From: a virus
Strand: one strand, 5' to 3'
Virus record (IMG/VR): IMGVR_UViG_3300020182_000235
Coordinates: 1-20,051 of that record
DNA: 20,051 nucleotides
Part shown: piece by piece, positions 417-2,171 of the stretch
Layout of the letters: each line of letters starts with the position of its first letter
Numbering within the stretch: position 1 is the first letter of the stretch
Made by a program: the position numbers and the translations under genes
Notes under the pieces: generated by a model
The model's database searches: none
What the model was told of the DNA's origin: nothing
What the model saw: the letters and a program-made list of their open reading frames with translations, nothing else

Positions 417-752
417 ATGAGTAATGTGACCACGGTATTGTGGTACACGGTGTTAGGGATGATGCACAGGTCGGCAGTGATTACCTGCTGTCACCTATGA
501 TGAACAGTACCACACATATGTGGTCACCTCTTCCATCCATAATACCCAGATGCGATAGCATCTTTACCACTGTAGTTATAGATGATGACACATAAGTGTA
601 TCTCTTCTCTCTTATCTATGACACAACGATAACACATGAGTGCCACATACATGACACAGGCTGTACCATATGGTCAGTGTGTATGCTGAGTGTGTGCCAC
701 ATGTATACACTACATTTGCTACACTCCATCGCATTGAGTAGTTGTGTGGTAT

Positions 753-810
753 GAGGTGATCAGAGTGTGATGTGAGGTGATGTGAGTTGTGATGTGAGGT
801 TATCAGAGTG
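753..810 (+). repeat. Direct-repeat cluster, GAGGTKATCAGAGTG with GATGTGAG units
   Basis: GAGGTGATCAGAGTG at 753-767 and GAGGTTATCAGAGTG at 796-810 differ at one base and are 43 bases apart. Between them lie three close copies of GATGTGAGGT/GATGTGAGTT (769-800). A further GTGATCAGTGTG follows at 811-822. The arrangement resembles iteron-like or operator-like protein-binding arrays; its role is unknown. Confidence 0.55.
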
Positions 811-837
811 GTGATCAGTGTGCCATCTACCATTGCC

Positions 838-926
838 TACTACACTCACACCACACACTAACTACTCTCAACCTCCACGCTACTTACAGTCACCCTCACC
901 GAGTAGAGTGCGATCAGAGTGTAGTA
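838..926. repeat. Nested inverted repeats
   Basis: TACTACACTC at 838-847 is the exact complement of GAGTGTAGTA at 917-926. Inside it CTACTC (862-867) is complementary to GAGTAG (901-906). The nesting could form a long imperfect stem in RNA, or simply reflect paired binding sites. The right arm overlaps a GATCAGAGTGT motif. Confidence 0.45.
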
Positions 927-953
927 GATGACACTCATACCTGTGAGAGTAGA

Positions 954-995
954 CCCCACCCCGACTGAGGGCATACAGCAGTAGAGGGGGTGTGG
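954..995. repeat. GC-rich hairpin
   Basis: CCCACCCC at 955-962 pairs with GGGGTGTGG at 987-995, with one bulged base, around a 24-base loop. It is the most GC-rich structure in the spacer. No immediate T-run follows on either strand, so I do not call it a terminator. Confidence 0.4.
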
Positions 996-1246
996 TCGAT
1001 GTATGTGAGGGTGTAGTGTATGTATGTATTTTATTTGTTCTCTCTCTAACACTGACCTACATAGTCTGTTTGGCAAATAAGGATAAGAAGTGTACAATAT
1101 AGTGAACCTAAGTAGTGTACATGTGCATTAGATCACTCCACATATTCAACTCTTCCTAGTAATGGAGGATGCATGCTCAGGTAGACAACACTCTGATCAC
1201 ACTCAGACTACACTCTAACTACACATCTTTCTTATTATGTTAAAGA

Positions 1247-1254
1247 TATAAATA
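1247..1254 (+). promoter_or_regulatory. TATAAATA element, possible phage promoter
   Basis: The octamer TATAAATA matches the late-promoter -10 sequence known from T4-type phages, and it lies upstream of the rightward late genes. There is no evidence here of the T4 late sigma system, and an AT-rich octamer can occur by chance, so this is a weak call. Confidence 0.2.
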
Positions 1255-1279
1255 CTTTTGCCAACCTTCAAGCTGGCAC

Positions 1280-1500
1280 AATATGTAGAATGCAAAGGTA
1301 AAGCGTGTCATATACATGCAATCCACACTCAATAAAATAGGGATATCAACCTAAGAGTGTATACTATATGTAGTAGGGGTACCCATAAATCTACTACATA
1401 TAGTATCAACACATACAAAAAATACAAAATTTAAGTCTAGGCCTAAAACACAACATGTAGTGGTTTTCGCCCATATTTGGCCTTAAATGTCTATATGTAG
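1280..1500. promoter_or_regulatory. TATATGTAG motif family
   Basis: AATATGTAG (1280-1288), CTATATGTAG (1364-1373 and 1491-1500) and the reverse-strand copy CTACATATAG (1394-1403) cluster within 220 bases; ACATGTAG at 1453-1460 is a looser copy. The two best copies are followed within two bases by GGGG and then T. A repeated AT-rich motif in a non-coding leader upstream of late genes could be promoters for a phage-encoded or phage-modified polymerase; this is inference. Confidence 0.35.
1361..1406. repeat. Perfect 16-bp inverted repeat
   Basis: ATACTATATGTAGTAG (1361-1376) is the exact complement of CTACTACATATAGTAT (1391-1406). The 14-base loop contains the palindrome GGGTACCC. No U-run follows on either strand, so it is more likely a protein-binding site, cruciform or RNA stability element than an intrinsic terminator. 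Confidence 0.7.
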
Positions 1501-1554
1501 GGGGTGTCTCCTATATAGAGAGAGTAAGTGAGAGTCTACTCCTATTACTCTAAG

Positions 1555-1585
1555 TTTACACTCCTATAACACTCCTTTCTATATT
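1555..1585 (+). promoter_or_regulatory. Weak sigma-70-like promoter candidate before the tRNAs
   Basis: TTTACA at 1555-1560 is followed after 17 bases by TCTATA (or after 19 by TATATT), about 80 bases upstream of the first tRNA. The -10 match is poor. The 12-base word GAGTGTATACTA, found at both 1355-1366 and 1617-1628, is an alternative promoter candidate. Confidence 0.2.
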
Positions 1586-1630
1586 CTTTTATAAGAGTAA
1601 GATAAGAGTGTAGTTGGAGTGTATACTACA

Positions 1631-1650
1631 GGGTGTCTGTAAGGACATCC
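1631..1650 (+). repeat. Hairpin just upstream of the tRNA cluster
   Basis: GGGTGTC (1631-1637) pairs with GACATCC (1644-1650), 7 bp with one G-U pair, around a 6-base loop. It ends 15 bases before the first tRNA and could guide 5' processing of the transcript. Confidence 0.4.
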
Positions 1651-1665
1651 TCACACAAAAATTAT

Positions 1666-1742
1666 CTCGGTATAACTCAGTCTGGTAGAGTGCTTCCTTT
1701 GGAAGGAAGAAGTCGTAGGTTCAAATCCTGCTACCCTGACCA
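1666..1742 (+). tRNA. tRNA-Pro (UGG anticodon)
   Basis: The cloverleaf has a D stem ACTC/GAGT (1675-1678/1688-1691) and a perfect anticodon stem CTTCC/GGAAG with loop TTTGGAA. The anticodon TGG is at 1700-1702. The T arm is GTAGG-TTCAAAT-CCTGC and CCA is encoded at 1740-1742. C1-G72 and A73 agree with bacterial proline identity. The acceptor stem is odd: pairs 1 and 4-7 form, but 2:71 is T-T and 3:70 is C-C. The gene supplies decoding of CCA proline codons if functional. Confidence 0.8.
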
Positions 1743-1747
1743 ATTAC

Positions 1748-1821
1748 GTCTGTATAGTGAAATGGTATCACGTCTGGTTCCAACCCAGAAAGTTAGGGTT
1801 CGATTCCTTATACATTCGCCA
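1748..1821 (+). tRNA. tRNA-Trp (CCA anticodon)
   Basis: The D stem is GTGA/TCAC with a short 7-base loop. The anticodon stem TCTGG/CCAGA holds the anticodon CCA at 1780-1782. The T arm is TAGGG-TTCGATT-CCTTA, discriminator G73 fits tryptophan identity, and CCA is encoded at 1819-1821. It begins five bases after tRNA-Pro. The acceptor stem has mismatches at the same two places as its neighbour: 2:71 is T-T and 3:70 is C-T, while 1:72 and 4-7 pair. Confidence 0.75.
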
Positions 1822-1830
1822 ATATAACTT

Positions 1831-1857
1831 GTCCGAAATATACTACAAACTTCGGAC
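1831..1857 (+). repeat. Hairpin between tRNA-Trp and tRNA-Asn
   Basis: GTCCGAA (1831-1837) and TTCGGAC (1851-1857) form a perfect 7-bp stem with a 13-base loop, ending three bases before tRNA-Asn. No T-run follows, so it is probably a processing structure, not a terminator. Confidence 0.5.
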
Positions 1858-1860
1858 CAT

Positions 1861-1936
1861 TCCCATGTAGCTCAATTGGTAGAGCAGCTGACTGTTAATC
1901 AGCAGGTTAAAGGTTCGATCCCTTTCATGGGAGCCA
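1861..1936 (+). tRNA. tRNA-Asn (GUU anticodon)
   Basis: All stems pair. The acceptor is TCCCATG/CATGGGA, the D stem GCTC/GAGC and the anticodon stem GCTGA/TCAGC with GTT at 1894-1896. The T stem is AAAGG/CCTTT, G73 follows, and CCA is encoded at 1934-1936. Its normal acceptor stem contrasts with the two tRNAs before it. Confidence 0.92.
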
Positions 1937-1959: not shown

Positions 1960-2130
1960 ATGCAGTTCACCCCAGATGATGATAGATGCTACCCAATACC
2001 TGAGAACACATACTGGCACATGAAATGCGTAACATGTGGACACCAATACTGTGGTCCTAAGAGAGCGTCTGAGTGCTATCCATGCTCCCAACTAGGTGAG
2101 CAACTTATCTTTGACTTCGCATCAATTTAA
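1960..2130 (+). CDS. Small Cys-rich, zinc-ribbon-like protein (56 aa)
   Basis: The start ATG at 1960 has AGGA at 1948-1951, eight bases upstream. An in-frame start further left would lie inside tRNA-Asn and is rejected. The 56-residue product has cysteines at 10, 23, 26, 31, 39 and 42, arranged as CxxC (23-26) and CxxC (39-42), the usual spacing of a zinc ribbon or knuckle. No other domain fits in this length. It lies between the tRNAs and terminase, where many phages encode a small terminase subunit, but nothing visible supports that role. A zinc-stabilised nucleic-acid or protein-binding function is the most one can infer. Confidence 0.7.
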   Translation: MQFTPDDDRCYPIPENTYWHMKCVTCGHQYCGPKRASECYPCSQLGEQLIFDFASI

Positions 2131-2144
2131 GAAAAGTCGCACAG

Positions 2145-2160
2145 GCGATCAGAGTGTAAT
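2145..2160 (+). repeat. GCGATCAGAGTGTA repeat copy in the terminase leader
   Basis: The 14 bases GCGATCAGAGTGTA at 2145-2158 are identical to 910-923 in the spacer, and TAG follows one base later in both. The copy lies between the 56-aa gene and the terminase ribosome site. It belongs to the GATCAGAGTG family also seen near 758, 801 and, reversed, 1188-1200. Confidence 0.55.
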
Positions 2161-2171
2161 AGGAATGTCTA

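Follow-up and report, generated by a model that had tools for sequence, protein, structure and literature searches.

Tandem pyrimidine mismatches at acceptor pairs 2:71 and 3:70 in phage tRNA-Trp and a neighbouring tRNA-Pro

The tRNA cluster and its closest relatives

The window, the 20,051-nucleotide stretch of viral DNA that was analysed, is a 20 kb IMG/VR fragment of an incomplete phage genome. It contains a cluster of three tRNA genes (Table 1), each scoring above the gathering cut-off of Rfam RF00005 (29 bits). Directly downstream of the cluster is the gene for the terminase large subunit, and beyond it come genes for endolysin, portal, scaffold and capsid. Judged by terminase, the nearest isolate found is Roseobacter phage CRP-7 (54%).

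Table 1. Features of the window in and around the tRNA cluster
Feature	Position	Strand	Details
Region with few plausible genes	600-1650		~1 kb; many direct and inverted GAGTGTAG/CTACACTC-like words
Near copy of GCGATCAGAGTGTAATAGG	910-928		
25-nt inverted repeat	1352-1415		arms 14 nt apart (ACTATATGTAGTAG...CTACTACATATAGTAT); noncoding region left of the tRNAs
9-bp hairpin	1630..1651	+	just upstream of tRNA-Pro; fold z = -3.7; altered-sequence counterpart in contig L003, z = -2.5
tRNA-Pro(UGG) gene	1666..1742	+	CCA encoded; ARAGORN (tgg); Rfam RF00005 55.3 bits
tRNA-Trp(CCA) gene	1748..1821	+	CCA encoded; ARAGORN (cca); Rfam RF00005 53.7 bits
7-bp hairpin	1831..1857	+	spacer before tRNA-Asn; fold z = -3.8; altered-sequence counterpart before tRNA-Asn in L003, z = -2.8
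tRNA-Asn(GUU) gene	1861..1936	+	ARAGORN (gtt); Rfam RF00005 74.2 bits
Small protein	1960-2130		CxxC...CxxC zinc-ribbon-like pattern; between tRNAs and terminase; conserved in L003
Motif GCGATCAGAGTGTAATAGG	2145-2163		immediately precedes the terminase gene; conserved in L003

The acceptor stem of the tRNA-Pro, CTCGGTA/TACCCTG, contains the mismatches U2•U71 (1667:1737) and C3•C70 (1668:1736), while C1-G72, pairs 4-7 and every other stem are paired. The tRNA-Trp, GTCTGTA/TACATTC, is mismatched at the same two positions, as U2•U71 (1749:1816) and C3•U70 (1750:1815), and its G1-C72, pairs 4-7 and remaining stems are paired. Full pairing of the acceptor, which is usual in a functional tRNA although not strictly required, is therefore lacking in both, and the acceptor of the window tRNA-Asn is free of mismatches. 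In Pro and Trp the only acceptor pairs that the Rfam model flags as non-standard are 2:71 and 3:70; in Asn it flags none. The flanks showed no other 5′ or 3′ ends from which paired stems would form. An earlier, sequence-only reading had singled out this shared pair of mismatches amid otherwise well-formed stems, next to a fully paired tRNA-Asn, and ARAGORN, Rfam and a pair check all bear it out. Folding gives a pairing probability of 0.57 for 1:72 of the window tRNA-Trp, a predicted weak end, and the tRNA-Pro acceptor is unstable in an unmodified model.

The two hairpins are possible processing elements or signals, and the motif in front of the terminase gene is perhaps a promoter for a phage RNA polymerase. 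The small protein encoded beside it matches only PHROGs of unknown function.

Direct homologues of the Pro and Trp genes were found in two viral contigs only. In L002 the tRNA cluster is identical to that of the window. In L003, whose terminase shows 95% protein identity and 86% nucleotide identity to that of the window (14% of nucleotides differing), the Pro, Asn and Trp tRNAs are present in a different order and score 54.8-59.3 bits against RF00005. The L003 tRNA-Pro has retained U2•U71 and C3•C70, with its anticodon stem altered by compensation. Its tRNA-Trp carries U2•U71 and U3•U70, so that the sole acceptor change (C3 to U3) again leaves a mismatch. The L003 tRNA-Asn (2306-2379) has C4•C69 and U5•U68, whereas its window counterpart is paired. 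Every mismatch in this pair of phages is pyrimidine-pyrimidine and adjacent to another. The ordinary paired stems in relatives that would have pointed to error or decay are thus not what L003 carries. Most relatives at a greater distance (terminase 54-68%) carry no tRNA genes; those that turned up, for Arg and Met, are few and fully paired.

Adjacent pyrimidine mismatches at pairs 4-5 or 5-6 also occur elsewhere, in the Cys tRNA of Ceto, the Phe tRNA of phiCbK, the Asn tRNAs of Tourach and contig L219, and the Ala tRNA of contig L183.

Rarity, recurrence and exchange of the mismatch

The background frequency was taken from 1382 viral tRNAs ending in CCA, with His excluded and none chosen on its acceptor stem. 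Fully paired acceptors make up 1229 of these; single mismatches occur in 125, two adjacent ones in 22 and two non-adjacent ones in 6. Adjacent double pyrimidine mismatches account for 13 of the 22 adjacent pairs (0.9% of the sample), and the seven double pyrimidine mismatches at pairs 2-3 are all in tRNA-Trp. At a rate of 0.9%, and with independence assumed, three doubly mismatched genes out of four (Pro, Trp, window Asn and L003 Asn) have P ~3e-6. Together with the retention in L003, this rarity upholds the earlier view that random decay did not produce the pattern. The two tRNAs had also been treated as a single coincidence. The positions are indeed shared, but the cases are not equal, as the Trp mismatch is widespread in phages and the Pro mismatch was seen in one lineage only.

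The Trp mismatch was followed by scanning viral contigs for tRNA-Trp with the 3′ end TTCGCCA and an unconstrained 5′ strand. The matches listed include 76 unique tRNAs, which begin with GUU (41), GUC (23), GAG (8) or GGG (4), and never with GAA or GGA. The double mismatch (GUU or GUC) is present in 64/76, a frequency conditional on selection by the 3′ end; the other 12 all have G3•U70, and A3-U70 occurs in none. The class was defined by a Watson-Crick 1:72, U2•U71, Y3•Y70, paired 4-7, G73 and an encoded CCA, all of which the window tRNA-Trp possesses. In a set of 68 unique members, including those of the window and L003 (median identity 69%), 1:72 is G-C, 2:71 is U•U and 3:70 is Y•U (U•U or C•U) without exception. 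Pairing is likewise complete (68/68) at 4-7 and in the T stem, where several pair types occur (covarying). Members were found in the isolates Synechococcus phages S-PM2 and S-CREM1, Aeromonas phage AhSzq-1, Vibrio phage Ceto and Mesorhizobium phage Cp1R7A-A1. One viral contig has two distinct mismatch-class tRNA-Trp genes side by side (L257:7775-7898).

A further sample of 88 viral tRNA-Trp genes was unselected on the acceptor and enriched for longer variable loops, which makes its frequencies conditional as well. The tandem mismatch at 2-3 is present in 7 of these genes, and a single mismatch at 2 or 3 in none. Four of the seven are U•U with C•C, the combination of the window tRNA-Pro. Mismatch frequencies depend on the search patterns and on ARAGORN, which may be biased towards U•U when it scores pairs; even so, mismatches of the C•C and C•U types turn up as well, and Rfam concurs with ARAGORN where the two were compared. 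The open literature on acceptor mismatches in phage tRNAs yielded no account of this tRNA-Trp class.

Bacterial tRNA-Trp genes are fully paired in 57/57 cases, with the double mismatch in 0/57. Searching 385 alphaproteobacterial genomes with the class Trp pattern gave 6 matches, none of them a tRNA. In a scan of all genome contigs, the 118 matches listed include 7 tRNAs, at least 4 with the tandem mismatch, which may be of prophage, contaminant or cellular origin. By these comparisons the tandem mismatch is absent from bacterial chromosomal tRNA-Trp and is phage-specific.

The double mismatch in tRNA-Pro was found in the window lineage only. A single U2•U71 recurs in viral tRNA-Pro (L024, L128, L143, L174 and L184), including that of a Pseudomonas phage isolate. 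Very close tRNA-Pro genes of other viral contigs read CAGGGTA/TACCCTG, which suggests a change of AG to UC on the 5′ strand in the window lineage. As a single-lineage case, the Pro mismatch may be tied to the Trp class through its shared positions and mismatch type.

The upper acceptor of phage tRNA-Trp is replaced as a block. The closest tRNA-Trp pair of opposite mismatch state, DSS3_MAL1 (AGG...CCU, paired) and viral contig L230 (GUU...UUC), differs at 7/75 positions, and pairs 1-3, all six nucleotides of them, account for six of the seven differences (P 3.5e-8 under uniform spread, a descriptive value because the pair is the most extreme of many). In four more pairs, from the unselected sample, changes stood at 4/6 in the acceptor top and 0/8 in pairs 4-7. 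Across close pairs, which are non-independent, the top three acceptor pairs change at 2.1 times the rate of pairs 4-7 in phage Trp (33 pairs) and at 0.67 times that rate in other isotypes (380 pairs). On a tree of the tRNA body, the mismatch state takes at least 35 parsimony changes against 55.5 in shuffles, a count inflated by the short sequences. The state is partly inherited and frequently switched, and class members may share ancestry or have been transferred horizontally.

Explanations for the altered acceptor top

The presence, conservation, phage-specificity and block replacement of the mismatch have to be accounted for together. The explanation preferred here, though held tentatively and somewhat short of even confidence, is that these are functional tRNAs whose acceptor top has changed in a way that TrpRS tolerates and that selection has favoured because it evades acceptor-reading host effectors. 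The window Pro and Trp would be working translation tRNAs, whose mature acceptors would keep the tandem Y•Y mismatch at 2:71 and 3:70. In Trp the phage-specific top would consist of a Watson-Crick 1:72 closing U2•U71 and Y3•Y70, with G73, and would be gained and lost as a unit, with the remainder of the tRNA unchanged. Bacterial TrpRS would read the anticodon and G73 and meet the upper acceptor mainly via its backbone, so that charging could survive the mismatch. In E. coli, the contacts of TrpRS with acceptor pairs 1-5 are to phosphates, and G73 is recognised by its base (PMC12135181), which would explain why Trp, and not other tRNAs, can tolerate the change. Host tRNA-inactivating proteins that read the upper acceptor pairs would no longer recognise the phage copy, which would keep translation supplied while the host tRNA is disabled.

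Candidate opponents would be acceptor-cleaving nucleases, tRNA 3′-end transferases and aminoacyl-tRNA acetyltransferases. FaRel2 reads acceptor pairs 1, 2, 4 and 5 (PMC11559606), CdiA-CT EC869 cuts between 71 and 72 in the tRNAs for Gln, Asn and Trp (PMC9071432), and AtaT acetylates Trp-tRNA (PMC7595197). Since CdiA-CT EC869 prefers a weak or mismatched 1:72, a loosened top could aid as well as hinder such an enzyme. Cas12a3 removes tRNA tails and tolerates stem changes. Defences that target tRNAs can, as is known, be overcome by phage-encoded tRNAs (PMC11555353, PMC10264068). Taken together, the TrpRS contacts, the effectors acting at the acceptor end and the counter-defence role of phage tRNAs favour altered acceptor recognition, with plain tolerance close behind.

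Several points count against escape from acceptor-reading effectors. The TrpRS of B. subtilis requires G2-C71 and G3-C70 for efficient charging (PMC9976931), and charging of the mismatched tRNAs is therefore doubtful in some hosts. The predicted weak ends, and a Pro mismatch without parallel beyond the window lineage, may also weigh against it, and no effector that reads 2:71 and 3:70 of tRNA-Trp has been identified in these hosts. The more general form of the proposal, that many kinds of phage repeatedly swap in a fixed tandem-mismatch module which the synthetase accepts and acceptor-reading immune effectors do not, is put forward with a little more reserve.

The main rival is simple tolerance, in which TrpRS makes little use of the upper acceptor bases and phage tRNA-Trp drifts among paired and Y•Y tops with no escape function. 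This is a serious possibility, ranked next after the two statements of the escape proposal. It agrees with the largely phosphate contacts of TrpRS, with the restriction of the 2-3 class to Trp and with the top pairs being the fast-changing part of phage Trp. The mismatches are, moreover, nearly all Y•Y, the type most easily accommodated, as small tandem pyrimidine mismatches fit an RNA helix. Drift alone, however, does not readily yield tandem mismatches that are common in Trp while single ones at 2 or 3 are absent, nor an invariant U2•U71 within the class. A six-nucleotide block swap in an otherwise near-identical tRNA exceeds what drift would be expected to produce, and bacterial Trp, served by the same synthetase, has not drifted.

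A decoy or regulatory tRNA, deliberately poorly charged and either sponging host effectors or acting outside translation, is improbable. The requirement of the B. subtilis enzyme and the predicted fraying of the ends would suit such a role, but the tRNAs conserve what translating tRNAs conserve, namely the anticodon loop, G73, an encoded CCA and the T arm, and CCA is the most frequent Pro codon in the window (47%). Regulation through T-boxes was considered and dropped, as the named hosts include cyanobacteria and proteobacteria. T-boxes are rare in both.

Post-transcriptional repair, by which a phage or host Thg1-like 3′-5′ polymerase or a 3′-end repair enzyme would rewrite 1-3 or 70-72, is very improbable. 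It had been raised in the sequence-only reading on the precedent of 5′ editing, which spans positions 1-3. No match to Thg1 (PF04446) above the cut-off was found in 50 class-carrying phage records (mostly fragments), nor in CRP-7, L002 and L003; the window being a 20 kb fragment, its phage may still encode one elsewhere. The negative search, together with a 1:72 that is never mismatched and always Watson-Crick, makes editing unlikely. Known 5′-editing substrates have mixed mismatches over positions 1-3, and those of the phage tRNAs are uniform (U•U and Y•Y); the L003 tRNA-Asn mismatch, at 4-5, lies deeper than such editing. Tolerance and resistance to a host nuclease, the other two options offered at the outset, both fit better. 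In the same 50 records no synthetase of the TrpRS/TyrRS type was found above the cut-off. Least credible of all are decaying genes or sequencing or assembly errors, for which two mismatches per stem and slightly lower Rfam scores could be cited, against identical bases in L002, retention in L003, mismatches of this kind in five cultured phage isolates, and a tRNA that is otherwise intact and covarying with its CCA encoded.

Relation to known tRNA systems

It has long been asked why phages carry tRNAs. A conserved double mismatch found only in phages, at a site where several immune toxins act, is a testable hint that some of their tRNAs are shaped for immune escape. It points to a host factor that would read pairs 1-3 of tRNA-Trp, and it would reveal to what extent non-canonical acceptor stems are tolerated by TrpRS and EF-Tu in bacteria.

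Conserved or genomic acceptor mismatches are known from two other settings. The bacterial initiator tRNA (C1xA72) likewise has a conserved, functional mismatch in its acceptor; that mismatch is single and at 1:72, whereas the phage one is tandem, at 2-3, and found in the elongators Trp and Pro. Thg1-like 5′-tRNA editing, which operates in some protist mitochondria, also involves genomic mismatches within acceptor positions 1-3. The phage tRNAs differ from its substrates in their always paired 1:72, in the uniformity of their mismatches and in having no Thg1 gene found with them.

FaRel2, CdiA-CT EC869 and AtaT act on the same part of the tRNA, with tRNA-Trp among the targets of the latter two. 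They are examples of putative opponents and not relatives of the phage system, and none has been shown to read 2:71 and 3:70 of Trp. A closer likeness is offered by the phage tRNA-Tyr and tRNA-Lys that counter retron Eco7 and PrrC, where a phage tRNA restores translation after the host tRNA has been destroyed (PMC11555353). The effect reported in the accessible portion of that source is largely one of expression level and tRNA supply, and an acceptor mismatch class is not described there.

The phage tRNAs that evade anticodon nucleases (van den Berg et al. 2023, PMC10264068) resemble the present case in that the phage isoacceptor differs where host tRNA-targeting enzymes read. In those tRNAs the changes lie in the anticodon loop, and the text does not mention the acceptor stem. 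Here they lie in the top acceptor pairs, as a tandem mismatch that recurs in unrelated phages, and if the proposal of escape is true they would form the acceptor-end counterpart of anticodon-loop escape.
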